From NCBI GenBank assembly GCA_008508345.1, contig QNGE01000432.1, forward strand, positions 124,001 to 188,000: 64,000 nt of DNA. The letters run 5' to 3'. The position numbers and the translations under genes are program-made. A model generated the notes under the pieces. It saw nothing but the letters and a program-made list of their open reading frames with translations. It did not search any database and was not told the origin of the DNA. Of this stretch, positions 8,701-64,000 are shown in pieces; position 1 is the first letter of the stretch, and each line of letters opens with the position of its first letter. This DNA comes from Paragonimus westermani (taxonomy: Eukaryota > Platyhelminthes > Trematoda > Plagiorchiida > Troglotrematidae).

Positions 8701-10564
8701 GAGTTACCCATGTTAAACAAGGTTCATTCAAATGGTCGATGGAAACAATCATGAAATGGGGTGAGCAGAATGCGGACCTCACACACTGCTCATTCCACAT
8801 CCAGTCCGGTTATTCAACGCTAAATTCATTTGGTTTACTTTTTTCGAGATTGTACCTAGTGAAAGAGAAATACGTCAGGTGAGAAATTTGGGTGCAAACA
8901 TGACAAAACACAGCTGCATGCAGATCTATTATTTTAACACAGTGTTGTTCGTTCTCGTGGAAATGTTTGTTCTGTTGGCTACTATGTGATACCTTTAGTT
9001 ACTCACAATGTCCTCGTACTTCAAGTAGAACTTTTTCAATGTGTCTGTACAAGCGTGTGTAATTGTTTCTCTCGTGGTTAGATTCAAACGGGTAATATAT
9101 AATTTATTAAAATATTTTCAAAAATGGCCAGTACTGAGGAGCATTTTTGACAAAATTCATTGTACGTAGGTTAGAAATACGCGCTAACCTTTCAAGAGCT
9201 TCCATATTCAAACTGGGCGTCATACGAAACCTGCTCATTGCTCAAAAATAAAAGAATATGTGAAAAGCTTACAGCGAATTCTAAACAAAGGAGCCGTTTG
9301 ATAAACGTAAACGTATGTTGCTACTCAAAATGACAACCAAAGATTTTCATCGATGTAGACTAAACGGAATTTCAAAGAGTTTACATTACTGTGTGAAAGG
9401 TCAAGATCAAATATGAGTAATATTCGGTCAGTTTGAACCAATATTCCGATCTTTCATTCCCCGTGGTCTTCGAGCTACAGAGGAGCATTTTTGGAATTTT
9501 CTCATTATGAACAGTAGAAAAAAACCTCAAATAAAAATGCACACTTTTTTCAGTACTCATTGGAGCAGACAGTTTTTCCGAAGCATCCAATCGGAAGCAG
9601 CAATATTGCCAAAATCTTAGAAGATGGCCAGTTTTTGCAATATAGCTCACGTGGCATGTAGTTCTACCCTACACTGCTTACAACCGCACGGATATAAACG
9701 CTCCCTTCCAAAGAATTATCGCACCTCATTCCGCAGAGACATAAGTGTACCTACGACGGTACATGTGCTCGGTCACTTACTCTAACGAACAGAAATAGCC
9801 AAGTAACCGAAATCGGTCACAAAGTGGCGAGGTCTATATTGTACGCTACATACCAAAATATTAAGAAATCGCTGTTCAGTCTCGTTGACCCACCAACCAC
9901 TTTCCAGTACACACACCTAAGAAAGGGTTGGGAAAATTTATTCCGAATGATCTTTCAGCTATCAGCAACCGGCCACTGTGGCCTGTCTACTTTCTTTCGA
10001 TTTAATGTCTTTTGCTATCTCATTTAAACTAAGTTGCTTATGACTATCACATTTCTTAACAACAGCGGATTCGGGCGAAGTGTGGGTGTGTTTGCAGCCC
10101 ACATATTACCCTTCGTTCCGATTCTCTCCCGCTACCAATCAATGAAAACCGTGATTCTAATCATGCCTTTGTATGTGAGTATTATTCAAGTTGCACAATT
10201 GTCTAACTGGAAGGAACAAACACACTAACATTTGAAACAAGTCTTTATGAGTGTTAGATCTGCGAGAACGAGATTTATCCGGTTGATATCCCAGTACAAT
10301 TAGTAGTTATGAAAATATCGCTCACAAGGTCAGAACAAACATTCCGTCTGGAAATCACTAATATCACGAAGTATTGATATTCCACCATAGCTAGCATAAC
10401 GGTTGATTTGCCTCCTTTCACGTAGTTTGGCCAGCAGAAGTAGTGCATTTTGGCATTTGAAGTTAAACCTTTAGATGTGATAATCTGGCTCTATCCAAAA
10501 CTGCATCAGTGACGAAGTTGCCAACCCGGATACATCAAAGGACCAATGAAGCTAATGCCACTAC
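2731..10564. other. Intergenic, no supported feature
   Basis: Nearly 8 kb of AT-rich sequence. The longest open frame is 103 codons on the minus strand at 6980-7291. It has no recognisable motif, an ordinary composition and no conserved neighbour. No repeat family seen elsewhere in the window was recognised here. An upstream exon or regulatory element of a neighbouring gene cannot be excluded. Confidence 0.5.
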
Positions 10565-10800
10565 TGGTGATTAATCGGAATCTGGTTAGGCTGAAGTTGA
10601 AAATCACGCATTTGACCGCATCTCTCACATTTAGACAGACCTTCCAGCCAGCTTCTTCTAAAAAATAGCATTAAACTCGAGCTTTGCTCTCATCAGAGCT
10701 CGTCAACAGTGCATGCACTTGCCATAGACTGGATTAGAAATCCTATCTTGACTTCATGGAACAACCATGTTAACTACTGCGCCACGGACCTCACATTGAA
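10565..10800 (-). mobile_element. tRNA-derived SINE with hammerhead, degraded minus copy (copy A)
   Basis: The minus strand carries the family order: tRNA-like A box region (about 10772-10784, reading GGCGCAGTAG), then the hammerhead region (about 10675-10715), then the 3' tail shared with the copies at 16.4 and 54 kb. The B box is badly decayed. The ribozyme segment still has stem II GCTCT/AGAGC, but the cleavage strand has changed. It lies head to head with the plus copy that starts at 10836. Confidence 0.75.
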
Positions 10801-10835
10801 GTACTTGGAAATCTCAACCTGTTTCGGAAATTTTA

Positions 10836-11150
10836 ATCGTGGGGTCATCAGTTAGAGTTAACAGGAGAGTTACTGTACCTACTCTGCAGTCGATTGGGCA
10901 GCCTGATCACAGCTCACAAGCGAAAGTGGTTGACGGTCCAGATTTGATAATTTGGTCATGGCTAATGTCAGGAACATGCCCCAGTGGCCGGTATTCAGGT
11001 TCCGGCCGTGGCAGAAATGTGCACTAGTGGCGAGTTCTACCAAGATCAAAGCTCGAGTCCAATGCTACTTTCGAGATGAGGCTTGCTATAACGTTTGTCC
11101 GAATGTGAGAAATGCGACCAAATGAGTAATCTTCAACTTGAAGCCATTGT
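10836..11150 (+). mobile_element. tRNA-derived SINE with hammerhead, degraded plus copy (copy B)
   Basis: It starts with the family 5' motif (here TCGTGGGGTCATCAGTTAG, related to the ATCGCGGGGTTATCGATTGG of the copy at 46294). It continues through the leader, a tRNA-like segment with the A box lost, and a remnant ribozyme around 11018-11065 (CACTAGTGGCGAGTTCT, then GCTCGAGTCC). The tail ends in CAACTTGAA. Together with copy A it forms an inverted pair separated by about 35 bases. Confidence 0.7.
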
Positions 11151-14100: not shown

Positions 14101-16371
14101 AGATAAATGCCCGTTTAAAAATCTCCATAAATAAGGAGGCCACATTCAGCTTTTGGTAATGTCCAATCCTGAGTAGCTCGACATTCTGAAATATGAGTGC
14201 AAATGTCAAGCTTTTCAAATAAAAATTTCGAAGCTGACTTTAACTTATTTTAGTGGCAATAGAATTTTTATCCATTCGCAACATGACAACGTAATTAACT
14301 CCATAATGCACTTCAGGTAATTTTATAGAGTTCCGTAAAAGTTAAGTGACCCTAATGGGAGACAAATTGCAGAACTGACAGCTTGTTAGTATTTATTCGA
14401 CCCGCCGTTCATGTTCAAGATATACGAGATAACCAGTACATCATGACGGTGTACCAGAACCTTCGTGTATTTCTTGCAGATTCACAAACAGCTCTCCGTG
14501 AATCTGCGACTCATGTGAACGTAACAAAACTAAGTCTCCATGCTTTCTTTTCATATGTTGTTTTCTTTGCGTTCCGTTAAATTTACTTTGCTTGTTTTTG
14601 GGTTTTATCTTTCAGCACCGATGAGCGAATAAGAAATGCGGTTGTTTGACGTTTATCTTGTTCTGAGCTCAGTAATACAAATAACCACGGTTTAAAATGG
14701 TTTGTTTTATTACCAAATTTCTAAGTTGTACTGCAGAAATCCAACCATCTCTGCTACTGTTAACACATAGAATGCTGTGTCAACCGCACTACCGGGTGGA
14801 AAAATGTATTCCGATCCTACTTCCTGGAAAGCGACAGTAGTGTAACATCGTCCGAACCCACTTAGTAGCATTCTATAAAACATGGTTATTCTCTGATTTT
14901 CTAGTGTTTATAAAGACCGATGGTATGGTAATCATGTGGAATTGGTACAAGGAGCAAATTTATAGTCATTTTTTATTAGATACTACAAATTCTACTTGAC
15001 AGATCAACTGTATTACAAAAGGTTATCCAAGAACACGCAGGCGTTTCGGCTTACCCAATATGTGATATCAAACACACATTTTCCGCTTAAAATCTGACCT
15101 GTGACTTTGTTGGAGGGAACATATACAAACTTAGTTTTTCAGAGCTTTTGCCGGTTATTCTTCAAATAAGTCATACTGCTCGTGAATATCCAAAATAAAA
15201 GTTTATTCTTTCACTGAAAAATATTCACATTTATTGATCATCAAAGCCAATCGAACCTTCACTAATTGTGCGGATGAGTAATAATTTTATATCGATATCT
15301 TTTGAATCAACCTTTATTGCTGGAACATTAAAACAATATCAGAATAATAGATGTTGTTAAACTCCGCTCCTGTTACCCCGTTCTTCCATGCTAACGCCAC
15401 ACTCCATACACTTATATTCTGTATAAATAGAATCCAAGAAGAGAACTATAGGGAAAAAACGTGGGTGAACACATCCACAGATGCATCTGAGAATGAAAGA
15501 AACGCATCAAACAGAACTTACCAAATTATAATGATTAACGACAGTGGTCACTACTCGTATTCTCGAAGGTGACTACCGTAATAACAAGAGTGGTGTTTGA
15601 AAATCACCTCGTGGTTTAGCAATAATCAGTTCAAGAAAAAGCATCAACAGGTGCTACAAGAAAACTGTACATGGAATTCATGTGTCACGTCTACTTTGGA
15701 CTAACGGTGACAATCACTTTCTGATAAAAAGCTTCGTGCACATGAAAAGCTTTGGCAAGTTATGTAAGTCAGTTGTGGCTTAGTAGTGAAAGTCTTGCTG
15801 CCCCAATCCGAGACAATCGTATTTACTGCATGCCGAAAAATTTCCAGAATGCCGTGAACACCTATTTAAGCATGCTTTGAGTTTTCTTTCCATAGGCTGT
15901 TCCCAATAAAACGTCTACGGTGATCTAGATCTGTTTAATAACGACACACTAACAAGCGAAGTTCACAAGAAAGTTTGCATGCTGTGATCTTAAGTCATTC
16001 AAAGTTCATGTGACTGAACTCGCCGAATTCCAGTCTCACCGTAAGAGATAGTTAACACTCCCATAATTTTAACCGGCTCATTTTGCAGAACATAACTTTT
16101 AGCGGTGAAGGAGCATTTGTTGCGAAAAAATCATATCAGTTAGTACGTGACTTCAACTTCTAGTTCCTTCTTCTTCCACAGTTGAACTAAAGTTGTATCC
16201 GCACGATGAAACAAGGTTAAAATTCCGATAGAACGAACACATGAAGTACTAAACAGATTGAGTAAGAAAGAGAGTTTATTCTAGCCATAACATTAGAAAA
16301 AAGGAGTTGGCCAAGTTTGATGTTTAAACCAAGTGATGTGTGATTTTCATGGATAGTTCCAAACAGTAAGA
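11151..16371. other. Intergenic, no supported feature
   Basis: Several short open frames occur (97 codons at 11593-11886; 89 codons at 12241-12510), with no recognisable domain. The 12.24-12.51 kb stretch is somewhat richer in CpG than its surroundings, but no family could be named. No RNA gene or repeat was recognised. Confidence 0.45.
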
Positions 16372-16715
16372 GTTCTTCTTCCCAAGTTGAACACTACTCA
16401 CATTTGACCACAGCCTTCTCATTCAGATGGACTTTCCAGCCAGCATCTTTCGAAAAAAAGCACTAGACTCGAGTTTTGCTCTCATTAGAGCTAGTCAGTA
16501 GTGCATACCATTACCACGGCCAGCATTTGAACTCCAGCCACGCGTTCATGAGGCAACCGTGTTGACCACTGTACCAATGACCTCACATTAGGCACGACCC
16601 AATTATCAAATCCGAACGCTCGAGCACTTTTGCTTGTGAGCAATGACCAGGTTGCCCGATCATCTCTGGAGGAGACAGTAACTGTCCTGTTAACTCTAAT
16701 CGATAATCCCGCGAT
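16372..16715 (-). mobile_element. tRNA-derived SINE with hammerhead, near full-length minus copy (copy C)
   Basis: This is a solitary copy running (minus strand) from the 5' motif at 16715 through the leader, A box region (16556-16567), B box (near 16522-16535, GGAGTTCAAATGC), ribozyme (16460-16504) and 3' tail ending near 16372. In the ribozyme, stem I (GCACTA/TAGTGC), stem II and the palindromic stem III are intact. The core has two changes: CTGANGA reads CTGACTA and GAAA reads AAAA. Cleavage activity is therefore not expected. The 78-codon minus ORF here is only the repeat. Confidence 0.88.
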
Positions 16716-19700
16716 AAAAACTTCCAAGAAAGGTGGAAGTTACTGATCTCATTAAACCCGCAGGGCGATATTTTCGTTTTTCATCGCAAATGCAACATCC
16801 TTGACTGTCCATTCAGAAGGTTACCGTGATAAATGAGCTTCTTGCACACAAACCCGCTCTCCAACAACTGATTGGACGTCTTTTGAAGGAAACCTTGGTT
16901 CTCAATATTTACACTTGAGAATCCCTTTCTGTCCCCTCCCCTCGTCTCAAGTTATAATAATCCCCCCACTAGTTTCTTTATCGTTCAAATTGAGAAACAG
17001 TAGTTGATTCCTTATCAGTGGTGATGACACTCCCCAAGCCATAAATCGTTTTTTCGGTTGTTTTTACTTCTGTCTTCAACTAATTATTGCTGCACAGGAA
17101 AAAGGTGTCTTGGTTTCAACACTGCATATATGCATTTTTCAGAATAATCACACAAATCCGTATTACCACTGAAGTGTGTTTTCGAAATTTCGCATAAGTT
17201 TTGTGAGAGGAATAATGCTCAAAAATTGCATAGCCTCCTTCAGGATCCCAGTTTCAAACGCACATAATCTTTGATCCTTCCTATGTGAAACAATACAGGA
17301 TCGCAAGCTTATCTGTGAAAAATTCTTTTCGCGTATAACTAGACATGGTTTTATACTCACGCAACTTCGGGATACACAGTGTACCTTGCTATCCCGAATG
17401 TAGCTCACCTCTACACATTCCGGTCATCCACTATAATGTATAGTGTCTCGTTAAATTTCTGTTAGCGGTCGTCTGAATTGCAAACGTGCACTTTGTATGC
17501 CTTCGTTGGTTGTCGCCCCAGGTTCAGACTTGTACCTGAAACGACCACTTTTGATTTGGCTGACACTGGTTTAAATTAGGCACATAGTCCAACCACAAAC
17601 GTACATATCTTACATCCGCTCTCAGTTAGAAATATATGTGAAAACCTCTTGGAACGTCACTTCTGAACAACTGTCAACAAAAGGCATCCGTGTGCAGTTG
17701 CTACTCAATCTGTCATATTCTGAGCGCTAAATAATCAATTCAAAAGTAGCAATCCCAGCAAGCGTGAATATCTGAATTGTAAATATGGTAGTTCTGAGAG
17801 CATAATCCCATGAATAACTCGAAACCGTGGTTGTCTCAATAAACCAACAATTCTGTGTGATTAGTTTTCACAGGGATGGGGTTTTTGTGTGGCAATCATA
17901 TGGACATTTTCTAGAATGTTTGAGTTGTAATCACGGAATTTTGAATTATGTGACCCATCAACACTACACACACTGCAAAACCGGATGACTTCAGCTTGAG
18001 AAGGTAGAAAAACGGCCACTCATGTCATTTGAAGTTCGTTTAAGGGGGGCTGCAGACATTGTGAAATAACAACCAAAAGCAGACACTTAAATGATATGGA
18101 TGTGTAACTATGGATAGCTAGCAGGGGTTTTCAATTTATCGTCGTTGTTGTTTCAACGTACCAAAACTCCGGGTCACAATACCTAAGTGGATACTGTATT
18201 GCCCTTCCTGGATACGTCAAGCTAATATGCGCAGATCACGGAGACAGCGGCCAAAAACTTCATGTTCAAGTGAACAAACGCAACGAGCGACAAAAATTCA
18301 GGTTGGATGCTTAAGGTCCTAATATAACAAGGGCTCATTCGGTCGGCACCACAGGTGTTGCGGCTCTGGGGAATTTTCCTGCATTTCATGTGAATCACCG
18401 CACAGTATTTATAAAGTGGTCACAATTTTATAAACAGTCATCCTAATTCATCTGCGTCCAAACTTTCATTTAACGTTACTTGGGATCATAGAATTTATTA
18501 CCTATCTTCTTTAAAGTTATGTGATTTCAATCAAGAAGTTAGTACACGAAACGAAGACATTCAGCATCCACGCTTTTAAATGCAACACTTAGGTTTTAAA
18601 TACAGTGTAAGTTTACGTTCGAAACACCTCCGTCACAATACTCTATGGTCTACATTATGTGAATCAGATTAAACTTCAACGCATTCTAATCCCTCGTGTA
18701 CAATTATGCCTACTTAATTCAAGGATTTGCCATGGAATTATGTAAGTTCCTTTTCGAGATCCATTATTCAAAAGCTATCTTAGTCACAGTCTCAACTTGA
18801 TTTCGTACACACCTTTTGTTTACCTCCTTGATGTAACCCCCTGTGATATTGTTTCAGAATGCGATGGAATAACCTAGTGGTGGAACTGTGTAAACGAGCT
18901 TTTCCGTTTACCATGACTGCGCCGGAAGGTTTTATGACTGACTGTACACACTTCAGTATCTTGAGCTGTAATCATCGAGAAAAAAAACGTAGATTCTCAA
19001 CATCGTCTATAAAAACAGTATCAACCAATTACATAAAGAATGGACGTGCCTTTTTGCTGGTTATGCGACTTTGTCAGTCAGTTTTAGACAATCTGAACTT
19101 TAAACTCATAAGGTCGCAGATTCCAACAGATCCTATCGTTGTGCAACAACCTCTTTAAAAGCTGCAATAGGATTGTTTTGAGCAAAACTCACGAATACAA
19201 AAATCAGCCTGTCAGTCGCAAAGGCCACGGTCAATCATTGTCAAAAACGACAGCAAACTGACATGTCAACACCGCGCCCAATCCGGATGTCTTGGTGGTA
19301 TGTCATCGGATTAGGCAATATCAAACATCGAAGCAAAATGAGTTGTTGAAATGCGTCGCTCGTTAAAGCGAGCGAGCTATAGGCACAGCTGAGGGGCCGG
19401 CACCAGTTGTAATTCTTCGTTCCCCTGAAGCGTCGTATCTATAAAATAACCAGCGAAGATTTAATAAAATTGAATTTCCCCCTAAGTCACAATGTCTCCT
19501 TCGATTCCTCCGGAAGGCGGCGAATTTTTAGCGGAAACCGTTTGTGACAATGGATACTTTGTACGTAGTTTGAAGCTTATCTAAACCTAACTGAGAAAGT
19601 CCTAAGTATGAGTGAAGCGGTTTGCTTCATTTATCGCAACCCGAAACGTACCATACTTTCACTGTTGCAACGTATCGTTAAATTAACGCGGCTAACAATT

Positions 19701-31000: not shown

Positions 31001-31011
31001 AGTTCAGATTT

Positions 31012-32290: not shown

Positions 32291-32299
32291 CTAGACCAA

Positions 32300-32741
32300 T
32301 CAAGTCATCGCCAACTGATTGACCAGTGGCCTAGTTTCTGTGTCGTAAGTCCAATCGATATCTCGATGTTACTCTATTAATTTAATTTATAATTATTTCG
32401 GACTGAATATGACTTATTGAAAACATATGTTTGCCTATATGTTTTGATTTTCATTATCTTAATGGTCGTATTAAAAAAAGCTGCATATAACAAAAATTCC
32501 ACTGCATGAATTATAAGGCAGAACGTTCTTTCATTTCTTTGTTTGCAAAGGCGTTCGTGTTAAATGCTTTATGGCGAAAACTTTTTGAGATTAACTAATA
32601 GATACTCGAGGTAACTCCTTATAATCTCCATCAGTAAATTCCTTTTAAAGCGAGCGTTCACTCCCGGAAGAAGACTCTAAATTGAAGGTTAGATCGCAAA
32701 TATGTTACTAATTTCCTTTTCCAGAGCCAACTGATTTATAA
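32300..32741. other. AT-rich spacer between Penelope fragments
   Basis: This stretch has no coding frame with a motif. It is AT-rich (for example a run of A at 32472-32479) and may include the tail of the plus-strand fragment. Its exact boundary with copy 3 is uncertain. Confidence 0.4.
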
Positions 32742-32778
32742 ATTTAAAACACTGAGTTCCCTTGATCCAGTTCACCAG

Positions 32779-34187
32779 TAGCGATAGAAGACATACATCG
32801 CGAGATGTTAAAATTTCGTTTACTCTCTTCAGTCACGAACGTAAAACATTAGAATATATATGGCATAGGGTTAGCAACACAATAAAAAAACATTCAGCCA
32901 TTGGGTTTACATGAAACGAAGACTGTCGTCAGTTCCAGAGCAGACAGACTGCGTGAGTCAACAATGTATGCACACGCAAGGCCGGACGGTGAGTAGTGAT
33001 CAACACCGCCTCGGAGAAAGCAAGCAACTTGGGGTTCTTATTACGTAACAGAACTTGAACCGAGTTGGCCGGGTCAACAACGTGACCTGTTTCCATGATG
33101 CGCTTTGTGATGGATGAGGTCGGATTTCGTCTCAGTCGTTTTGTTGCCAATGCCCGTTGCGTCATGGGGTGTATTAACCACCTAGGCATATGTTCAGCCA
33201 TTCTTTGTCGTAGGCATCAATCTGTTTTGCCGATATAGATGTCACCGCAACTGCAAGTGAACTGATAGATTACATGTGAGACAGAACATTTCGGTAGGTC
33301 ACGATTACAAATAAGCTGAGTGACACTCCTAGTTGTGAGTAGCAACCGCAATTCATCCGCAGGGAGTGTGCGAGTTAGAGCATACTGTAATTTTTTACTT
33401 ACGTCGGTTGTGATGTGATCGCCTTTGAAGGGTAGGTTCAAAAAGACCTGCTTCTTGGGAACCGTACTCACGACAGTCTTTGTCAGTCCCTTCTGGCTGT
33501 GAACATCGATTAACTTCTCAGGGTATCCGTTTGCGTGCAGTACCTTTCTTAATTTCATCTCTTCTCCCTGTAAACAGTCATCGGTACATATCTTCCGGGC
33601 TCTATGAAACAGGGTTCGTACCAGGCCTCTTCTGTAAGTAATGGGCGCAAAAGAAGAGAATTGCAAATACTGACCGCTCCAAGTAGCTTTGCGGTGCACT
33701 GAGCGTTGTAATGAGCCATCGTGCCGTCTGTTAATTGAACTGTCTAGAAAATATAAACTGGTGTTTGTTTCCTCCTCATGAGAAACAGAAAGATTAGGAC
33801 GAACGGAGTTGAAGTGGTTTAGAAGTGAATCAAAATGAATATTAGTAGTAAGAATCAAAATATCATCTACAAATCGCTTATAAAGGCTGGCACCATCTAT
33901 AGCATCAGATAGTTTTAATTCAATCATTCCTAAAAATATATCTGCAAGTGTAGGGCCCAACGGGCTACCCATTGCCACACCATCAACTTGCTTACAGGAC
34001 GGTCCGCCGAAATCAAAATGGATATTCTCTGTACACAAAAGTATAAGTTCCTTAAGATAATCGACTGAGAAACAAAAAGGCAAATTTTGATGGGAAATAA
34101 AATCCTACATATTCTAATGTTTTACGTTCGTTACTGAAGAGAGTAAACGAAATGTTAACATTTCGCGATGTATGTCTTCCATCGCTA
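32779..34187 (-). mobile_element. Penelope-like element copy 3 with inverted flanking repeats
   Basis: A reverse transcriptase/GIY-YIG coding part lies between two 77-base inverted repeats, 32779-32855 and 34111-34187, which differ at only 4 positions. Penelope elements are known for terminal repeats (pLTRs) that may be direct or inverted and often combine with 5' truncation. Both fit here, since the coding region lacks the first RT motifs. The high arm identity suggests that this copy is younger than copy 1. Confidence 0.8.
32929..34083 (-). pseudogene. Penelope-like RT plus GIY-YIG endonuclease, one in-frame stop, 5'-truncated
   Basis: One reading frame of 384 codons runs from 34083 to the stop at 32929, broken once by TGA at 33219-33217. 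From the first Met: VDGVAMGSPLGPTLADIFLG at 33-52 is the RT block before the catalytic site; FVDD at 71-74 (33873-33862) is motif C with both Asp present. FLDSSINRRHDGS and the linker FLNLPFKGDHIT follow. CSCGDIYIGKT at 277-287 starts the GIY-YIG domain, which continues past the stop as RMAEHMPRWLIHP. RT motifs before residue 1, including motif A with the other catalytic Asp, are missing, so target-primed synthesis by this copy is not expected. Copy 1 shows CGA at the stop position, indicating a CGA to TGA change. Confidence 0.9.
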
Positions 34188-34289
34188 TTGATTTATAAAT
34201 CCTGTTTGGGCGTTCATCCCCGTTGATGAGTTGCCAGTTTTCATGTAGCACAACAGCTTCGGTAAGTAGCCAAGTTCAGACGTGAAAGC

Positions 34290-38008: not shown

Positions 38009-38014
38009 ACTATT
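38009..38014 (+). repeat. Left target-site duplication ACTATT of the H2B-carrying element
   Basis: ACTATT immediately precedes the first base of the left inverted repeat (38015). The same six bases follow the last base of the right inverted repeat at 38583-38588. This placement is what a cut-and-paste DNA transposon leaves. Confidence 0.7.
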
Positions 38015-38582: not shown

Positions 38583-38588
38583 ACTATT
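38583..38588 (+). repeat. Right target-site duplication ACTATT
   Basis: This is an exact match to 38009-38014, directly outside the right inverted repeat. Six bases is short enough to arise by chance, but position and symmetry with the repeat ends support it. Confidence 0.7.
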
Positions 38589-39954
38589 ATCAGACATGCA
38601 TACTGTGTTCATTATTGATCTCTGTTGGTACTCACCTTGGTTAGTTGTTCTGTTAAAATTGCTAACGATCAAGCACAGAAAATAAGTTCCATCTCTTCAC
38701 TTTTTTGTGAGTTCAGTCAATATTTTCGAAAGAGTTAACAACATATTGTTCAGGTAAACATAGTCTTCAAATCACGCAGAACGTTGAAGTAGGTAGAAGT
38801 TGTGCATGGTTTATCTAAGTGTTTATAATCAGCTATACCGGTCGTCATTGCATTGACTTTCCATTTTCAACAATTAAGGAGCTGACGGTCAGCATACAAC
38901 TGAACTGCATCATGTTAACTCCGCAAGCTAAAAAAAAATACTGACGATCGATTTCATTGGTATCCTCAGTTTGATTGAAAATCTAAAATTGTTTGGTGTA
39001 GGTTACATATTTGCGTGTTGGTTTGTGTATTTTAGTGATTCTGGGTATATGCAATTAACCAGAAATTGGACAGTTTCCTCGTGCACACTTAGCGAACGTT
39101 CACATTTGTTTACTTCCAGTACACACACCACAAGTGGACAAGTAGCTTGTCATATTCTCCAGTTATCTTGAATAAACACATTTGTTGAGTGGTTTCGTGT
39201 GCCTGCTTTTTGTGTAATTCTTTTAAGCAAACTAAGCTAAAAGCTACAATTCACCGTAGCCACTGGTATACCACACAACTGTCTGTATTCCCCAGTGGTT
39301 TGTATAATCTATGTGTCCTAATTTCCTTAACGGTCAGTGGGGATTCCGAGTCAACTCTTAGTGTTTGATACTCACACTTCCTTTTATGTTGCATCTCCAC
39401 TAAATTATTTGTCCATAAGAGATCATCTGTGCAGTGCAAGTATTTCAGATGAAAACTGAAAGAACCGCTAGTATTTTACATTTATCTTATCTGGCGGGTT
39501 TTTCCGTCAAAAATTTGGTGTAGCGAAGTCTTTCTTCCCGCCGGCGTTATTGTGGAAACAATCACGTGGAAAATAAAACCAAGACGAGTAAGTCCATCTA
39601 TCAAAGTAGGCTTGCTATAAAGAATATAGGCAAATTATTTACATTCTGGCATTACTAAGTAACCTACAGCGATTCCCCCCGATTACTCAGAATCGGCTAC
39701 AGTGATAACGCTTTCATTCACGAATTTTAAGAGGTCGTGAAGACAGACTGACTAAATGAATCTATTTGAAAAAAGTTGTATACAAAAAAGGCTTACGGCG
39801 GATTTGACACTAGTTGTATAAGTACCGTATCACCGTAGCGAAAGCGAGCCTCGTTCGAACGTTAAGATAGCCTAACCTTAGAGACACGTAATGTTGACAC
39901 CTTACAAATCACGGTTAGCGTCTTTTAGTAAAATTTTAGGAAAAAACTAACAGT
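38589..39954. other. Intergenic, no supported feature
   Basis: Short open frames only (66 codons at 38971-39171, minus 62 codons at 39251-39439), none recognisable. There is an A8 run near 38930. No repeat family was identified. Confidence 0.45.
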
Positions 39955-40262
39955 GAGTGATTGGGGATTCAGTTACTTCAAAGTTGAACATGACTTGCAA
40001 TCGATCGCAACGTTTGTTTCAGGTAAACCTTGCAGCCAACCGTTTTCGAAAAGGAGCATCTGACTCAATTTTTGTGCGTAAGTAATGCACATCCTTGCCA
40101 AAGCCCGAGGTGGATTTCCAACCACGCTTTCATGAGGCCACTTTGTTGACCACTGCGCCAGTGATCCCACAAAAGGTAAGACCGGATTATCGTACCTGAA
40201 TTCTCAACCACTTTCAGTTGTGAATAATGACCAGTTTACTCGATCTTCACGGTAAAAAACAT
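39955..40262 (-). mobile_element. tRNA-derived SINE with hammerhead, old minus copy (copy D)
   Basis: The tail (CAAGTTGAAC type, near 39980), the A box (minus TGGCGCAGTGGT, 40147-40158) and leader can be followed. The ribozyme segment (about 40053-40090) has lost the CTGANGA box and stem II pairing. This is one of the oldest copies in the window. The 65-codon minus ORF here is repeat-derived. Confidence 0.75.
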
Positions 40263-40429
40263 TGCTATTTACTTTACTGAGTGTATTCACACTTAGCTGT
40301 GTATTCGCTAGTTTGCTTCGTTACACCCAACAGGTTACCTGGTTGCAAAACTAATTCGAAGAGAGCAGTACTTTTATGTTTCTACAGGGATTAGTTGTGT
40401 TCAGAAAACATGGCATATTTAGACAAGCT

Positions 40430-44800: not shown

Positions 44801-45719
44801 TTCTTACAACCAAAGTGCATCTGCCTTGATTTCTTTTGTCAGTGTCCGCTATTGAAAAATCATTATAAGCTGGCGTTCAGGTTTGCAACGGCATTCGTGC
44901 AAATTTTTACCGTACATTTAGTCAAGTCTCCCTACGGAATCGTTAGAATTTTCCCCATCTAGGAAGTTCACCTTTCTCGCAAGTTCAAGAAGTGCTACAA
45001 ACTCAAGGGTCTTCTAACTGCTTATCTTTGTGGCTATTCGTCTAATGGTTGACATACGCAAAGTACCAATATACTGATTTGATTTTCTGAGGTAGCTGTC
45101 TATTTTAAATGCAACCAGCACAATTCTATGAAAACACCTTCTTTTCTTATGAGTGCGTTTGATTGATTTGCCGCATAAAAGGAAACCGTTCTATGCTCCA
45201 TTGTTTATAATCCTATCCTTTCGGACAACCATAGCAACCGTACTATTGACAACATGCCAAACCTAAACCCGTTGCTGTAGCACGTTATTTAGCAGCTGTT
45301 TTGTATCCGGTTTTGAAAGTGGTTAAATTCTTAGTACGCAACCAGAATTGAAGTGGAACTTGGACTTACTGTGATTCTGTGAGATCCGTGCAAGTCATTT
45401 TACTTAAGTAGCATGAACAGAATGTTTAAACCATCTAGCTTTTATTATGAATTTAAACTGATCAGAGCTTGAGAATACATAGTTGATACTCTGTCAGATT
45501 CCGTTGCATCACCACATTTGTTTGTCGCATGAAACAGGAAACAAATATTCACGTATACGGACCAGTGCCAATTGAATAATGATACGGCCTAGATTACAAA
45601 CAAATTAAGAGGACATAACATACCCGATGCAATTAATAATCCGCCAACTCTGTTCAGTTAAACAGACAGTTCTATGAAAATATAGATATGTGTTCTCAAT
45701 AACCCCACCATGAGTGTTA
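41803..45719. other. Intergenic or intron, low information
   Basis: If 41642-41796 is an exon, its downstream exons should lie here or beyond. No second exon is convincing. An 81-codon frame at 43829-44074 has balanced composition but no motif. The patch at 42000-42200 is richer in GC, yet its translation gave no family. Confidence 0.35.
42760..42846 (+). repeat. ATT/TTG-rich low-complexity tract
   Basis: Irregular TTATTG and TATTATT units dominate about 85 bases. They create an artificial hydrophobic open frame of Tyr, Ile and Val (42666-42914) that should not be read as a gene. Confidence 0.8.
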
Positions 45720-45950
45720 TACACGAGTTTTTGTGTCACAGCTTATCAATAATGCACATCCCTGTCACCGTTGGGACTAAATCTCCATCCATACTTTCAA
45801 GAGGTAGCCGCGGTTATCACCGTGTTGTTGATTTCACATTAGGCACGAATGAATAATCGTATTTGCACGCCCAATCCCATTATCTTGTGATTGGTACCCA
45901 GATTACCTGATTGCCTCAATAGGAGACGTAATAATTGTGCCGCTAATTTC
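45720..45950 (-). mobile_element. tRNA-derived SINE with hammerhead, degraded minus copy (copy E)
   Basis: On the minus strand the leader (from about 45945), CGTGCCTAATGTGA junction, tRNA-like part and a decayed ribozyme end (near 45725-45755, still showing stem I TGCATTA and CTCGTG) can be aligned with copy C. It is head to head with the plus copy that begins near 45969. Confidence 0.7.
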
Positions 45951-45968
45951 AATGGATGACCTCTCGCA

Positions 45969-46230
45969 AAAGACGATTCAACCTGCCGTTATGTCAGGTC
46001 GGGAGCGCGATGGTCAACACGGTTGCCTCACAAAACCATGGCCGAAGTTCTAACCCCGACAGCGGCAAGGATCTGCACTACTGACGAGCTCTAATGAGAG
46101 CAAAACTCGAGTCTAGTGCTTCTTTTCGAAAGAGGCTGGCTGCAAAGTCTATCTTAATGCAAACACTGCAATCAAACGTGACTGATGGTCAACTTGAAAA
46201 TAAACCAAATCCCCGACTAATCATCAGTAG
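45969..46230 (+). mobile_element. tRNA-derived SINE with hammerhead, plus copy (copy F)
   Basis: It lacks the leader but has the tRNA-like part (ATGGTCAACACGG at 46011-46023; decayed B box near 46045), the ribozyme (46075-46119) and the 3' tail ending in CCCCGACTAATCATC near 46225. The ribozyme keeps CTGACGA, stem I, stem II and stem III. Its only core change is AAAA for GAAA at 46102-46105, which removes G12, the general base of hammerhead catalysis. It probably does not cleave. Confidence 0.88.
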
Positions 46231-46293
46231 TCTAAAATGTCGTCTTGCAAGTATATTGAGATAAGTGATCTCGATCTGTCTCCCGGATGTCCT

Positions 46294-46662
46294 AATCGCG
46301 GGGTTATCGATTGGAGTAAACAGGACAGTTACTGTGTCTCCTCTCTAGATGATCGGACAACCTGGTCATTCCTCGCAAGCGAAAGTGGTTTGGCGTTCAG
46401 ATTTGATAACTCGGTGGTACATAATGTGTGGTAATTGGTGCAGTGGTCAACACGGTTGTCTCATAAACGCGTGGCCGGAGTTCAAATCTCGGCCGTAGCA
46501 ATGGTATGCACTATTGACGCGCTCTAGTGAGAGCAAAAATGGATTCATGCGTTTGCTTCTGAAAAAGACCGACTGGACAGTCTACGGGAATGGGAAAACT
46601 ATGACCAAGTGTGGGTGGTGTGTAATCTGTGTAAAAACCAAAATCCCCTACTGCTCAACATT
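46294..46662 (+). mobile_element. tRNA-derived SINE with hammerhead, near full-length plus copy (copy G)
   Basis: This is the best plus-strand view of the full unit: ATCGCGGGGTTATCGATTGG start, about 130-base leader, A box (GGTGCAGTGGTCAACACGG, 46437-46455), B box GGAGTTCAAATC (46474-46485), ribozyme region (46505-46550) and tail to CCCCTACTGCTC. The ribozyme is broken: CTGACGA reads TTGACGC and the stem III strand is lost. It lies tandem to copy F, 64 bases downstream. Confidence 0.88.
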
Positions 46663-51115: not shown

Positions 51116-54036
51116 AGACCTAAGACGTTTTTCATTCATACGAAGACTGTGTTCTTATCGAAGATTCATTGCCTATTCGTCAGGCAAAAATAGAATACTC
51201 CTGTACTTATAAGTAAACGGTTCATGACAAAAACTATATTCGCGTGATCATTTACTACAGAACGCCTGACGTAATCAATAATTCCGGTGTATCATGGTGC
51301 AAAACGGTTGGACAGAAAAAATTGGCGGAATAAATTTCCATCATCCGTTAGGCACGGCCTGGGGGTGGAAGGACATCACTTAATATCTCGGATCACGCAA
51401 CGTTTTCGAACACACGCATACAAAATTACCTCTGAATTCATCGACAGCGCCTACTTACACATGATGAACAACCAACTGGATAGAAAAATGTAGGAATGGA
51501 ACCATTGCTTTTTTTAAATTAGATGAATTGTTGTCATGTTTGTTCCGATTGTCTTTTCTTGGAGGTGGACATGGTAGTTGCCACTCCGTGTTCTTTAGAC
51601 CACAATGGATGGAAAATTGATCATCTTAGGCAGGATGCGTTTATCAATGCAAACGAAATGTGAACAAACTGCCCAACCGTTCACTGGATATCCTACCTAG
51701 TAAGCCATGGCAGTGTCTGTAATTCTGTTATATCTATTAATTAGAAGAATAACGCATCTCCTAAGCTTGTCTACACGTCGAATATATAAAGTGGACCAGG
51801 TTGCGTGAATTTGCACACAGTGACAACCACATATTTGCAGGTCAGACATACTTCAGCCAGCCCAATTATTTTTCCAACCGTATACATAAGCAGACATAAG
51901 TATTGACATTCCGGTCGAAGTTGACTGTGGTTCTGACTAGCACGCAGCCTGTCCTGCAAGCTGCCCGTCAGTTCCTTCACCTTCATTACTCAGCCTTAGC
52001 CAGCCAGACGAATCAACTTTACACAATTTTTGGTTAAAAAGAACAGAAAATAATACTTCTAGTTACATTTTCGTCATCGTTCTGCACAGAACATAAAGCC
52101 TTATTAAACTCCACATGGTCTGTTTTTGTGGTGGCTACGAGCAGAACTAAACTGTTTGCTTTTGCCGTAATAGGGGTGTAATTCTCTGCACGGTTCTATG
52201 GTCACCGATGCAACCCAATTATTCCCAAGTGTGATTAGTCCTGCCAAGACCTAATGATCAGATGACATCATCATCACCCTTTGAAATGAACAAACTGGCC
52301 ACATTTCATCTCACCGATGAGGCCATAACTAATGTGCAGATACCAGGACACACGTAATCGGTCAATGGTTCCAAACTTGAAAAGCGGACAAAAGGTGGGA
52401 TAAACACGGCAGCCAATTCACAAGCTGTCCTTTGGGAAGCCGACGGTAATTCTGTGAGGTCAATGAATTTTCAAACAATCTTTCTTCATTCTTTCTAACT
52501 ATAGATGTGCTAGGCTTGTTAACACGCTAAGTGAATAGAGGCTCCCGAGTATGTGGCTGGACGGTTGATCTTTACTTTCCTCTTAGTGGGCGACAAAAGA
52601 ATTGTCTCGCCGGTCACTTTACGGGATTGTACTCAGTAGAAAATCTACGAGTAGATGAAAATATCGCATTAAACTGTTGAATACCAGTAACACATATTGC
52701 GGTCCGGTGAATCTGCAACAATTTTCAGTATTCCAGTCTTCAGAATGACGGTTTTGGTGATACGACAATTAGGAGGATAAAGTTGGCACACTCGATGTCC
52801 ATTCAATTTTATCCCGGAAGGTACCCATTACACAGGTTTCGGGAATGAAGAAAATATATTGATTCTGACTACTACTGACATAAAGCTACTATAGCTAACG
52901 AGCTGACGGATGGTAACTTGAAATTACAATATGTTTTTTGCCTGCTGCTCACTACGCAACCGAAAAATGATTTACTCTCCTCTTTAGAGGTGACGATTAA
53001 GCACATTTAGTAGTAATCAGCATAGTAACCTAAGCGCCATGATATAGGAGCTGACCCCTCATTCTTGATTGGAACCAGTACTTCTGATTGATCCTACCAG
53101 GATTGCAATTCATTTCGGTTGCGTTTTTTTGCACCGAGCCAGCAAGCTGACTACAATGGACTGAGATTGATGCTCAGCTGACAATGATAATAATGACTCC
53201 TAGTAATTAGAGTGTATGAAAAATCCACAAATTAGGAAATCTTATTTTGTTGGCGAGAAATTTTTTTTCCCAAAATCGTACCTCCCCAAACGAATACTCT
53301 TGGGAATGAGCTGTAGTATACAACTTTCATCTTCACTATCCATTGGCCAACTCCAGATGAACGCCCATTCATTTGCCAACATTGGATTTATTCCTGTTCG
53401 ATTCGAGTTGTTCTAGAAATACATGATCCTGGACTAGTTGACAGTTTGACCTGCTCTGTCACAAATCCCGGACAAGAGTGAGATCGAACCAACCTGAATT
53501 CTCGATCTGCCCAATAGGCCTGTTGCACAAAATCCGCTGTAGTCAGGGTGAAATTGAGAAAATATTTATTGTAATGAAAAAATAAACGTTTGATCCCGAA
53601 TATCTGGCAGAAAAGTTGGCTTACCTGTACAGCATAACTCATCGGTATAAGATCTTAAGTTGCTTGACCAACTGCACGCAACTGGCTGTGAAACGGCACG
53701 TTGTAGACGGCCTGACGGTTTTACAAATATTCGAACTCCGTTGTATTCGAACAACGGTTTTTCCTGTAGTGTTGCAACCATATTCTGATCATTGTTTAAC
53801 TATCGATTGCTGCGTTCTACCTGTGTGAATACAGTCTGTCTGCTTGACCATCATCACTTCTGAGACCATATTCTAACTGGCTAACGACCACCGCATTCTA
53901 CCCATCCTGCTAATGTCGTTCTTTGGCTCTCAAAAAATGAGGATTCCGCCATCCAGCTTGAGCTTAGTCCCACATTCTGGTAAACACAACCCTGTTGTTC
54001 GGGTTGTTCCGAAGTCCAATTATTACCGTGGCTGTA
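51116..54036. other. Intergenic, no supported feature
   Basis: Short frames only (66-84 codons, for example minus 53388-53642), with no motif. No known repeat until the direct repeat at 54037. Confidence 0.45.
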
Positions 54037-54048
54037 CAGAATTAAACA
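54037..54048 (+). repeat. Left 12-bp direct repeat around the inverted SINE pair
   Basis: CAGAATTAAACA here recurs exactly at 54600-54611, immediately outside the right end of the pair. It has the size expected of a target-site duplication made by retrotransposition. Confidence 0.8.
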
Positions 54049-54098
54049 ACCTTCTCATTCAGATAGACTTTCCAGTCAGCCGCCTCCATCGGAAAGAA

Positions 54099-54143
54099 GC
54101 ACTAGACTCGAGTTTCGCTCTCATTAGAGCTCGTCAGTAGTGC
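54099..54143 (-). ncRNA. Type I hammerhead ribozyme, intact core (copy H1)
   Basis: On the minus strand: stem I GCACTA (54143-54138) pairs perfectly with TAGTGC (54104-54099). Core CTGACGA (54137-54131). Stem II GCTCT, loop AATG, AGAGC (54130-54117). GAAA (54116-54113). Stem III is the 8-base palindrome ACTCGAGT (54113-54106), then C17, so cleavage is predicted after GTC between 54105 and 54104. All invariant positions match the hammerhead consensus CUGANGA-GAAA-NUH. Stem III can give only a 2-bp hairpin in a monomer, or 8 bp in a dimer. Confidence 0.88.
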
Positions 54144-54161
54144 ATATCCTTGCCACGGCCG

Positions 54162-54173
54162 GGATTTGAACTC
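54162..54173 (-). promoter_or_regulatory. Pol III B box of SINE copy H1
   Basis: The minus strand reads GAGTTCAAATCC, close to the B box GGTTCGANTCC. It sits in a T-arm-like hairpin (GGTCGG before, CCCGGCC after), about 31 bases after the A box. Confidence 0.75.
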
Positions 54174-54204
54174 CGACCATTCCAATCATGAGGCAACCTT
54201 GTTA

Positions 54205-54216
54205 ACCACTGCGCCA
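54205..54216 (-). promoter_or_regulatory. Pol III A box of SINE copy H1
   Basis: The minus strand reads TGGCGCAGTGGT, matching the tRNA D-arm consensus TRGCNNAGYNGG. Confidence 0.75.
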
Positions 54217-54352
54217 TTCACCTCACATTAGGCGCGACGGAATTATACAATCTGAACACTCAACCACTCCCGCTTGTGAGCAATGATCAGGTTGCCCGAT
54301 CGTCTCTAGAGGAGACACAGTAACTATCCTGTTAACTTCAATCGATAACCCC

Positions 54353-54599
54353 GCACTTGTGCCTAATGTGCGGTCAATGACGCAGTGATTAACAAGGTCG
54401 CCTTATGATTGGAATGGCCGGAGTTTAAATGCCGACCGTGGAAGTATATGCACTACTGATGAGCTCTAATGAGAGCGAAACTCGAGTCTAGTTCTTCTTT
54501 TCGAAAGAGGCTGGCTGGAGAGTCTATCTGAATGCGAAGGCTGCGATCAAATGTGAGCGCCGTTCAACTTGAAAACAAACCAAATTCCCGACTACTCTT
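54353..54599 (+). mobile_element. tRNA-derived SINE with intact hammerhead core, plus half of inverted pair (copy H2)
   Basis: It joins H1 directly at 54352/54353 and begins inside the unit (GTGCCTAATGTG), without the leader. The A box is decayed (TGACGCAGTGA, 54378-54388) and the B box is mutated (GAGTTTAAATGCC), but the ribozyme core is intact. The full 3' tail runs through GTTCAACTTGAAAACAAACC to CCCGACTACTCTT, abutting the right direct repeat. With H1 it forms a 551-bp head-to-head inverted element. Confidence 0.92.
54450..54494 (+). ncRNA. Type I hammerhead ribozyme, intact core, one stem I mismatch (copy H2)
   Basis: GCACTA (54450-54455), CTGATGA (54456-54462), GCTCT-AATG-AGAGC (54463-54476), GAAA (54477-54480), ACTCGAGT (54480-54487), C at 54488, then TAGTTC (54489-54494), which pairs with GCACTA except for one T-C. 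The core is fully consensus. Cleavage is predicted between 54488 and 54489. Confidence 0.85.
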
Positions 54600-54611
54600 C
54601 AGAATTAAACA
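54600..54611 (+). repeat. Right 12-bp direct repeat around the inverted SINE pair
   Basis: CAGAATTAAACA is identical to 54037-54048 and starts at the first base after the SINE tail. Confidence 0.8.
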
Positions 54612-57600
54612 GCTTTATCCAGTTTGCGAGTGGTTAGGCACGTGTGTGTCAAACTGGCGCACGAGCTCATCGAAGCGGTGCGTTCGACATACGTGCTCAC
54701 TTCGATCGAAACATGATTCTAGATTAACGCACTGCACATCTGCCCATGTTCTAAGTCACTCCGTTTAATAAACAATGCTGGAAAGAAACACGCAAAAAGG
54801 AGTCTCATTGTGTAAGTGTTCGGAAACTACTACCGCCGGAAATATCAGCGACAACGGACCAACGTTCCTTTGATTGCTGTCTAATCAGCCATCCGAGAAG
54901 ATTACATTGCAGTGCAATTATTTACACATCCACTAGCCTTGCCATATTATTTGCACAATCAGAAATCGAGGCGAATCTAATGTATACTCATCGTCTGAAT
55001 GTTCATTAATCGTAAAACTCAATGGAACAGGGTGAAAAACAAGCAAACTAGGTGTACTCTTTCATGTAACTTGTGTAGTAAAAATGCTTACGATTAAAAT
55101 AGGTAACACCAATTTCGGTACACAATAACATGCTACATTTTACACTGTGCATGGTACAGACAGTAATAACGAATAAATCACATTGCCCAAACCTTCTCGA
55201 TAACTTTTCAATCACTCCGAAATAATGTACTCAAGAAGGTAGTTATTGCGTTTACAAGCGGACATTAGTGGTCACACCCATGTGCTGATTTTAAAGATGA
55301 TCTTCCTTTGAAGTACAACCATAAGCAAGATTAAAACGTCTTACTAACCATATTAACGCCGCACTGATGCTGCTGGCTGTCTGTAAATTACATGCGTGAA
55401 TCGAGTGGGTTAGTTACACAGAGTGGCCAAGCAAACCACAAGAAATGTTAGGGCAATCTCTTAATGATGTCCAGAATACCCGCCACAAACCAAAAATACC
55501 ATAATTACTGCAAAAATCAAGCTGAACCCTGTGTACACATGACTTGCTTTCCGTCTGGGTTCTCAGTGTCTTGTCACAACTTTTGGTTGACTGTTTGCAT
55601 CTTATGTCGCACAGGTGTGCAAGAGTCAAGTACCAGACAGACAGGCACTTTCTGTCGCTCTGTCACAGAATTTAAACCACCGGCATACACGGGTGTACTA
55701 GAGCGAACAGTGAAGTCTACAAAGCTGATTGCCTTCCGCCAGTGAATTCTTGTATGTTAAAAGCAGTCGACCTTTCCTTAGGCGCTTCAGAAAATTGAGG
55801 TGCACAGGTTGCAACCAGCTTATGTTACACTTAATTAGGAGATAGGATCCCAGACGATTAGATCAGCATATTTGATTAAATTACTTATTTGCGCACGACT
55901 TTAGACTAGGTAAACGTAGCCCACCTGACCAGCCGGTTGCTAGAAAGCACTATTAAACTGCTGACGACTTATTCACTGCATCCACGTGAGCAACTGTGAC
56001 TGATTCATTCTGACCACCAGTTTATCGATCGAAAAACGCACTACTTATCAATTTGCTGGTTCCAGTTTCTAACCAAACCTCTCAGTGATTTCCTATTGTT
56101 TCTTATTCTCCGTTTGTTTTAAGCCTGATACATCCACAAAAACCACTACGTATATTGAATGAGGAATGAAGAACAATTAAATCGGTTTTGATTAGTTTGA
56201 TTGCATAAACTCTATCTGTCCCATAGCTAGTCAGCACTTGACACATCTACAAATATTGAAAGTTAGAGAGGTGCTAATATACACACTGAATATCGCTCAC
56301 ATTCCGTAGACTTTTGGCCAGCATAACTCACATACACTACTCAATAAGTGTTTGCATACAGTACTTCGGTCGTGTCTAATGTATGAGCAGTGGCGTAATG
56401 GCAAGACAACTTTCCATACAAATTTGGGCGGTGTTCAACTTCACGCCTGGACGAACATGTGTACTCAAGGCAATCTTTAACAAGAGGGAAGCAATAGTAT
56501 ACAGCTTTTTAGGAGGGGGTTGGGTGAAACTCCTCAAGTCAACGGAAATTCGATACCTAAACTATTTCGTCGCTCGCTGTCAAATCGAACATCCTCTGGG
56601 GCTGGTTTCGCCCTTGTTTCAACGCACCGCGTGAAAGCAGTGACATCGACATTCAGTCGACCGGTTCGATGAATACGTTGTCATACGTTGTAATTTAGAC
56701 CATTGCAGTTGAATTAGGCGGTTATGGTGAAAGATGTATCGATCAATTGTAGAACACAGTACATTGTATTTTATACCATGACTTGCCATATGGCCAAAAA
56801 TAAGTAACATCTCATTACTTTCTATCGATTACCAGTCGTGTATTCAGATAATAATTGGAAGCACATTTAGCCAGGGATTTATTTCAGCAGCTACTTGTTG
56901 TTAACTTCAGGGCGAGAAATCGCATTGCTTCACTGGCTAGCAATGTTTCGCAATGTGACTGATCACAGACAGTAGAAAGTCGCTCTACGTTTGCAGCTGC
57001 TACAATTACACGAATCAGATCGAGGAGTAATGCATCTGTCTCTCTTCATCACACGCCAGATTGCAGCACATAATACTAAATATACTGGCAACTTGGTTGA
57101 GTGCGTTCGTTTGTTGTATCATTAGCTGGTCCGGTGTATTGCTGCCCGGTACAGCATAGGATAAGCTTCCGTGTCAGCTTTCTAAATAGGTGCCTCCTTG
57201 TAGGGTTTCTTAATTGTTCTGTTTGTACTTAAGGGGTTGCCAACGACAGAGGCGGTATAGAAACAGTTCCTAACGAATGAAAATTGCGTCGTATGTAATA
57301 CTGCGTAGTTCGAACAAAACATAGCTACCGCTAGAACAACAGAATTCGCAGACTAGTCATGTGCTCAGTTTGCTTACACATTTAATCGCGATTTCCCGCT
57401 CAGACACAAGAGTCCTGTGCTGCTCTCTGGTTACGACCTAGTTAAAAACATTTCGGAAGAATCATTCTAGTTTTCTTCTGTGTGCCGAGATGGGCAATGA
57501 AATCACAGTCTGTTTATCAAGATTACTTTCGGTCAATGAGAAATTCTAAGGTTACTGTTTGTTCGAACTTTAGCATCTGGTGACATCAACCTCAAACACA

Positions 57601-59030: not shown

Positions 59031-59130
59031 GAACAAAGCACTTAGAACACAAAAACTGATAGATGTAAGCATTTCGTATTGACTAGTATTGCTTACATCT
59101 GCCAGCTTTCGTGTTCTAACTGTTTCGTTC
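59031..59130 (+). repeat. Long imperfect hairpin (41-bp arms, 18-base loop)
   Basis: Arms 59031-59071 and 59090-59130 are reverse complements at 34 of 41 positions (36 if RNA wobble pairs on the plus strand are counted). The loop is TTTCGTATTGACTAGTAT. The 14 innermost base pairs of the stem, AGATGTAAGCA side, are nearly perfect. It could be a microRNA precursor-like foldback, a small MITE or a chance inverted duplication. No coding sequence crosses it. Confidence 0.75.
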
Positions 59131-63200: not shown

Positions 63201-63388
63201 CATGGGAAATATAGTATAGGCTAAAGATGTCACATGGCCAGATGAGAAACAGTTTGTCTGACACCCTTTGTTACTCGTGAACAAAACGTGTTTTCCGTCC
63301 TAATGAGAATAACTTAAAGGTTTAGAAAACTGACTCTGGTAGTATAGTACAATAAGTAGTGAAGGTTCTGGAAGCAAGGTTCTTTCAA
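60261..63388. other. Intergenic, no supported gene
   Basis: Several overlapping open frames of 102-120 codons occur at 60346-61428 and 62270-62632, on both strands. The mutual overlap and lack of motifs suggest chance or very old repeat sequence. None has a codon pattern like the receptor gene. Confidence 0.4.
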
Positions 63389-63640
63389 AGTCCAACACCA
63401 CCCACACCTGACCATAGCCTGCGCATCCAGATAGGCCTTTCGACCAGCACACTTCGAAAGGAAGCACTAGACTCGAGTTTCGCTCTTATTAGAACATATC
63501 AGTAGCAAATATCCTTGTCCGCATCGCAGTTTGCACCGTTACTGTTGTGCTTGTGAGACTAGCGCGTTAACCACAACGCCAGCAACCTCATAACAAGCAT
63601 GACCAAATCCAAACACTCAACCACAACCTTCTATGAATAG
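63389..63640 (-). mobile_element. tRNA-derived SINE with hammerhead, minus copy (copy J1)
   Basis: The tail (63389-63440), ribozyme region (63464-63108 equivalent, about 63464-63510) and tRNA-like part (A box remnant near 63575) can be aligned with H1. In the ribozyme GAAA and stem III ACTCGAGT (63471-63478) are intact, but CTGANGA reads CTGATAT (63102-96 equivalent, 63502-63496) and stem I is mispaired. It is probably inactive. Confidence 0.8.
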
Positions 63641-63862
63641 TGATCAACTCATCCGATCATTTCAAAAGGAGAATGAACAGAATCACTCTGTTCTGCCCAG
63701 TCGATGACACTGTGATCAGGACTCCTCAATTAGATTGAATTTACCGTCTTCATTGAACCACCTGGTCATGGTTTGAACAAGCAGTGAAGTCTAGTGCTTT
63801 TTTTCAAAGTGGGTTAGCCGAAACGCTTATGTGAATGTGAAGGTTGTGAGTGGTGTACGGTT
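63641..63862 (+). mobile_element. tRNA-derived SINE, plus partner copy with internal loss (copy J2)
   Basis: After a leader-like piece (CACCTGGTCATG near 63749), it jumps to the end of the ribozyme, AGTCTAGTGCTTTTTTTC (63788-63805), and the 3' tail GTGAATGTGAAGGTTGTGAG. The tRNA-like part and most of the ribozyme are missing. With J1 it again makes a minus-then-plus pair. Confidence 0.65.
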
Positions 63863-64000
63863 TTGACGTACAGTAAATGTTGTTTCGTTTTTGGGAATAA
63901 ATTGCTGCATAGAGTTACTCAAATCCCTGCCAATGAAATGTGGACATTTGATGAGCGAGTGAAGAACCCAAATTCGCTCCAGCTGCGTTAACAATCTCAT
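63863..64000. other. Window end, nothing recognised
   Basis: The last 138 bases contain no coding signal or repeat that I can identify. Confidence 0.5.

Follow-up and report, generated by a model that had tools for sequence, protein, structure and literature searches.

Head-to-head hammerhead SINE copies in Paragonimus westermani share their insertion geometry with a resident Penelope-like copy

The locus described here touches the question of which enzyme moves animal hammerhead retrozymes. Metazoan non-LTR retrozymes carry a type I hammerhead ribozyme, are a few hundred bp long and are flanked by a target duplication of more than 4 bp, and the SINE analysed here resembles them in these respects (PMC7229834). 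The retrozymes are reported as direct tandem repeats, whereas the SINE copies at this locus pair in inverted orientation; the main text of PMC7229834 uses neither 'inverted' nor 'head-to-head'. The SMalpha and Sjalpha elements of schistosomes are also SINE-like, hammerhead-bearing and from flatworms (PMC8490949), a likeness that we draw by description only. At the level of titles and abstracts, no printed precedent for head-to-head hammerhead SINEs was found, the literature on hammerheads in Penelope-like elements being incompletely covered by this search.

Penelope-like elements have been named as candidates for the mobilisation of retrozymes (PMC7229834, PMC7761336). The grounds given for regarding them as strong candidates are the type I hammerheads found in both, their tandem occurrence and their co-existence (PMC7229834). 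In rotifers, Penelope elements carry an inverted pLTR, most often head-to-head, with a tail optionally present on one inverted pLTR. Their target duplications, where present, measure 8-10 bp, and self-priming on an antisense template is the explanation favoured by the authors (PMC3846280). A Penelope-like protein from a lizard was able to cleave both strands in vitro and to extend each of them, in which it is said to differ from R2Bm and L1 (PMC11167929). Another kind of inverted insertion is made by human L1 through twin priming. Where the two cDNAs of such an inversion overlap at all, the overlap has a median of 12 bp, with quartiles of 4 and 17 (PMC12016303).

A SINE pair enclosed by one target-site duplication

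The window, by which we mean the whole stretch of 64,000 nucleotides that was analysed, contains at 54049-54599 a pair of SINE arms that we call pair A. A minus-strand arm, A_l, lies head-to-head with a plus-strand arm, A_r, and the two arms are 87.5% identical across 184 aligned columns in a BLAST comparison. The features of pair A are listed below.

54037..54048, plus strand: left target-site duplication CAGAATTAAACA, from sequence reading, flank test and 12-mer count
54049..54352, minus strand: arm A_l, a SINE that has the 5' leader, a tRNA-like part and a hammerhead but lacks the 3' tail
54099..54143, minus strand: type I hammerhead ribozyme of A_l (Rfam RF00163, 34.7 bits, above the gathering score of 34)
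54163..54175 and 54207..54217, minus strand: B-box-like and A-box-like motifs of A_l, assigned by eye against the Pol III box consensus
54353..54357, no strand: head-to-head junction, about 3-4 bases outside both arms, by reading
54358..54599, plus strand: arm A_r (start approximate), leaderless, starting about 19 nt before the A-box-like motif (54378) and reaching the 3' tail
54378..54388 and 54420..54432, plus strand: A-box-like and B-box-like motifs of A_r, likewise assigned by eye against the Pol III box consensus
54438..54511, plus strand: hammerhead of A_r (Rfam RF02275, 34.6 bits, E 5.9e-5, below the gathering score of 52)
54600..54611, plus strand: right target-site duplication CAGAATTAAACA, from sequence reading, flank test and 12-mer count

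In both SINE arms the tRNA-like stretch sits upstream of the hammerhead, and ARAGORN called no tRNA in this part of pair A. No open frame of at least 130 aa lies within 54049-54599, no poly(A) was seen at the 3' end of pair A in a reading of 53400-55400, and the predicted RNA fold of A_r was no better than those of shuffled sequences (z 1.24). The possibility that pair A is a fold-back artefact of assembly was considered and rejected, because its two arms disagree at about 12% of their sites.

An earlier sequence-only reading had described a minus copy and a plus copy between two identical 12-mers, and both reading and repeat finding confirmed this arrangement. The boundaries given for the minus arm held. 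The plus arm had been started at 54353; it really begins at about 54358-54361, and 54353-54357 form the junction. Two strings had been called private to the two halves. ACAAGGT is indeed limited to the two A arms among the ten aligned arms, but it occurs 15 times in the window, and the claim failed for CATGATTGGAATGG, which has a single occurrence in the window. A string that is found in both A arms and nowhere else in the window is ATGATTGGAATGG.

To judge the flanking repeat, the boundaries of pair A were compared with random boundary pairs. As a duplication enclosing both arms, the 12-bp repeat scored 12.5, which 0/3000 random pairs reached, and no duplication was found around either arm alone (fractions of 0.98 and 0.62 of random pairs). 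With one mismatch or fewer, CAGAATTAAACA occurs in the window only at the two edges of pair A. At least two such 12-mer matches appeared somewhere in 18/100 shuffles, so it is the position of CAGAATTAAACA at both edges that matters and not the count. The CAG part of the repeat is also similar to the 3' end of the family itself, which leaves 9-12 bp that can be counted as duplication without ambiguity.

The arms themselves were compared among ten pieces of the family (45 pairs), with the right arm of pair D excluded as too short. The two A arms have diverged alike, with 14/188 and 18/188 non-majority sites (p=0.58). They have 5 derived states in common against 0.4 expected, a ratio of 11.43 that ranks first of the 45 arm pairs, although strictly private sites common to both number only 2. 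Because the arms are equally diverged and show the highest excess of common derived sites, they most likely entered together, in one insertion. The proposal of the sequence-only reading that the pair was inserted as one unit is thus upheld by a duplication that brackets the whole pair.

Recurrent inverted pairs of the SINE family

Further copies were identified by BLAST of both A arms and by self-comparison of the window; a weak family match at 56322-56527 (59.7%) was excluded from the counts. The family comprises seven counted insertions, namely pairs A to D and the single copies E, F and G, and 4/7 are therefore head-to-head.

10562..10797, minus strand: arm C_r of pair C, leaderless, tail present
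10798..11145, plus strand: arm C_l of pair C, leader present, tail cut short
16370..16774, minus strand: single copy E, full leader
39954..40300, minus strand: single copy G
45716..45985, minus strand: arm B_l of pair B, leader present, 3' part missing
45986..46232, plus strand: arm B_r of pair B, leaderless, tail present
46234..46660, plus strand: single copy F, full leader, immediately after B_r, head-to-tail
63365..63775, minus strand: arm D_l of pair D, full leader and tail
63784..63862, plus strand: arm D_r of pair D, a 3' fragment whose start (63747-63785) and end (63841-63886) depend on the reference used

The starting points of the shorter arm in pairs A, B and C lie no more than about 7 bases from a common position, some 19 nt before the A-box-like motif, and this leaderless arm may end at a Pol III start. 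The tail of these three pairs is found on the shorter arm only, the other arm stopping short at different places, and the single copies E, F and G extend to the tail region. In pair D the tail sits on the leader arm. Pair D is a less clear case: the match to arm D_r covers 61 bp of the 3' part (75%, E 3e-5), and the ends of this short fragment shift with the reference. A start of D_r exactly at the hammerhead cleavage site was considered and rejected, because only the secure part of the match begins at that site and fainter similarity may reach further upstream.

Measured on the longest leader, the leader arms of A, B, C and D end at approximate positions 60, 48, 20 and 1, respectively, and these differing ends make the junctions look independently made. 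Pair A also aligns across the inverted junction with pair B and with the reverse complement of pair C. When 11 pieces were placed independently, at least two head-to-head contacts within 10 bp arose in 1/200,000 runs and at least three in none. The contact from B_r to F is the one direct, head-to-tail contact; the pairs are otherwise inverted. At this contact (46228-46240), B_r is followed by the 5' leader of F with almost no spacer between the two family copies. The 5' leader in E (16716-16774) and F (46234-46293), and probably in D, is about 60 bp longer than in A.

By the random boundary-pair test, no significant target duplication was detected at B, C, D, E, F or G. Copy lengths are about 240-430 bp, in keeping with a retrozyme unit of about 170-400 nt that F slightly exceeds, and the 9-12 bp duplication, longer than the 4 bp of that definition, is seen in pair A only. 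The arms of B are unequal in divergence (44/135 vs 30/189, p=0.0005), so B may represent two events or two templates. No divergence difference was found between the C arms (p=0.32), which have 8 private sites in common, the most of any of the 45 pairs. The excess of common derived sites was 2.88-fold for C (rank 6/45) and 2.15-fold for B (rank 11/45), and several cross-locus pairs rank higher. Belonging to the same class does not bring arms closer together: ratios were 0 for A_l-B_l, 1.87 for A_l-C_l and 1.88 for B_l-C_l among leader arms, and 1.06 for A_r-B_r, 0.74 for A_r-C_r and 0.88 for B_r-C_r among leaderless arms. The arm tree is poorly resolved. Sub-threshold RF02275 matches were obtained for B_r (E 0.0061), E (E 0.019) and D_l (E 0.43) in addition to A_r, and scans with exact hammerhead-region patterns gave 0 matches in viral contigs and 0 in genome contigs.

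Two other inverted structures were observed in the window. At 38008-38589 there is a near-perfect inverted repeat with arms of about 170 bp and an extra stretch in one arm, enclosing a minus-strand fragment that by eye is histone-H2B-like. A 108-bp hairpin at 59027-59134 is 79% self-complementary and gave a weak, sub-threshold mir-759 match.

Resident Penelope-like copies

Penelope-like sequence is present in three copies in the window, here called PLE1, PLE2 (31008-31680) and PLE3 (around 50124-50999). PLE1 consists of the following parts.

32732..32743, plus strand: left target-site duplication TGATTTATAAAT, with its right copy at 34189-34200
32742..34105, minus strand: main arm with the 3' tail, including a reverse transcriptase open frame at 33217-34104
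34106..34190, plus strand: inverted arm of 85 bp at the head of the copy, 93% identical to 32776-32860 and without the last ~34 bp

The duplication TGATTTATAAAT scored 12, a value reached by 1/3000 random pairs, and two ambiguous bases at each edge set its length at 10-12 bp. One internal segment of PLE1 is present in both orientations, with the tail of about 34 nt on one arm only. This geometry is the same as that of pair A. Head-to-head arms within one target duplication are present in both pair A and PLE1, and a 3' tail on a single arm is found in A, B, C and PLE1. Adineta Pen2a and other Penelope-like elements resemble pair A in having head-to-head arms with the tail on one arm, and in the single duplication around the insert, which measures 8-10 bp there and 9-12 bp in pair A (PMC3846280). 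The length of a target duplication cannot by itself separate Penelope-like elements from LINEs.

No inverted arm was found at PLE2 or PLE3, so that PLE1 is the one case among three resident copies. PLE2 was considered as a second head-to-head case and rejected, the score of the plus-strand fragment at 31738-32300 against PLE2 falling within the range of shuffled scores; against PLE1 this fragment scored 26.0, barely above the shuffled maximum of 24.5. The fragment, a diverged plus-strand piece that is Penelope-like and nuclease-like, lies beside the minus-strand Penelope-like 3' fragment at 31008-31680 and by sequence looks like a different, diverged copy. No significant target duplication was found at PLE2 (fraction 0.12).

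The minus-strand open frames at 33217-34104 and 50124-50999 encode pieces of reverse transcriptase/nuclease proteins. The former gave a sub-threshold RVT_1 match (23.5 bits against a cut-off of 29.6) and has 273 relatives at E<=0.001. Among the 120 relatives listed, those named as eukaryotes are flatworms, three carry bacterial bin names and most are nameless. The open frame at 50124-50999 had no Pfam match; it could be aligned to a relative from Dicrocoelium, with 123/277 identical, and to protein P0088, whose GIY-YIG domain (275-316) faces the C-terminal half of the open frame. When the Penelope relative P0040 was searched against solved structures, other reverse transcriptases came up as 4 weak matches, the best with E 0.0099. 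Rfam found no hammerhead in the resident Penelope-like copies, which are truncated; as PLE1 is 5'-truncated, the absence of a hammerhead from it is weak evidence.

Unlike Penelope-like elements, the SINE is non-coding and has a tRNA-like part, and it has no detectable sequence in common with the resident copies. In pair A, neither a reverse transcriptase with a GIY-YIG nuclease nor common Penelope sequence was found. All 18 comparisons of the SINE with the three resident Penelope-like stretches scored no higher than the maximum of 60 shuffles, and a 3' tail common to the SINE and the resident Penelope copies, considered as a candidate link, was rejected when none was found.

Proposed priming from both strands and the probable enzyme behind pair A

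On balance, we favour the reading that 54049-54599 is one insertion produced by dual-strand-primed copying of SINE RNA, most likely by a Penelope-like enzyme. The element would be a non-autonomous hammerhead SINE of the non-LTR retrozyme type, inserted by retrotransposition. Where the target was cut, each of the two 3' ends would prime reverse transcription of the SINE RNA, one at the 3' tail of this RNA to give A_r and the other at an internal point to give A_l. Each cDNA would then run toward an RNA 5' end, the ends would be joined mid-insert, and filling of the staggered cut would leave the duplication of about 12 bp. The template could be one RNA copied with strand displacement or two RNAs, both of which fit the data, and self-priming, as favoured for the Penelope elements of the rotifer, would also be compatible with them. 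A Penelope-like enzyme is suggested because the geometry is a published habit of Penelope elements and a resident copy shows the same; from geometry alone, this type of enzyme is the most likely one.

Priming from both strands is also how twin priming is described for L1 (PMC12016303), and an ordinary LINE might have made pair A if both strands primed on a single SINE RNA and the cDNAs came to overlap through strand displacement. L1 inversions resemble pair A in their inverted 5' part and in the duplication around the insert, and the internally primed second arm and the 12-bp duplication of pair A fit as well. However, little cDNA overlap is expected of L1-type twin priming, and the segment present in both A arms spans 184 columns against the median of 12 bp among overlapping L1 insertions. 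Inverted Alus are very rare, with a 5' inversion in 0.02% of germline Alus and, as cited in the same paper, in 1/130 somatic Alus (PMC12016303), whereas 4/7 insertions are paired here, and pair A has no poly(A) at its 3' end. We therefore consider an ordinary LINE rather unlikely, and the remark in the sequence-only reading that ordinary twin priming does not place one segment in both halves is supported. A distinctly unlikely alternative is that the inverted dimer is the element itself, a two-arm hairpin RNA that is transcribed and copied whole, its left arm shortened by ordinary 5' truncation. Alignments that span the junction, as A gives with B and with C in reverse complement, would be expected of such an element, as would the variable left and fixed right ends, which are those of 5' truncation, and the divergence gap of the B arms, which two arms of an old unit could show. 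Against it, the leader-side junction points vary between pairs, the arms do not group by class (ratios of 0-1.88 compared with 11.43 within A), the singles E, F and G exist, and the tail of pair D lies on the leader arm.

The template that the sequence-only reading had proposed, an RNA that the hammerhead had turned into a circle or a tandem dimer and that was copied more than once, appears improbable. The SINE does have a hammerhead, metazoan retrozymes do produce circular RNA (PMC7229834), and F follows B_r directly, head-to-tail. Rolling a circle, however, gives direct and not inverted repeats, and pair A lacks the head-to-tail junction that such a template should leave, so the proposal is unsupported. 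PLE1 has the same geometry with no hammerhead found there, though PLE1 is 5'-truncated, and a circular template is not needed for pair A. It is highly improbable that two separate insertions abutted by chance. The unequal divergence of its arms makes this possible for pair B, but the duplication of pair A brackets both arms and neither arm singly, and simulated placement gave a tiny chance of such abutments. Priming from both strands, most likely by a Penelope-like enzyme, is thus the reading that we carry forward.

More tentatively, Penelope-like elements may mobilise hammerhead SINEs and retrozymes in trans, with a head-to-head pair in one duplication as a routine outcome. A common insertion geometry is a different and checkable type of evidence on the enzyme, one that can be counted in any genome holding both element types. 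If this proposal is true, a head-to-head pair in one duplication would be a readable signature of the enzyme behind animal retrozymes.
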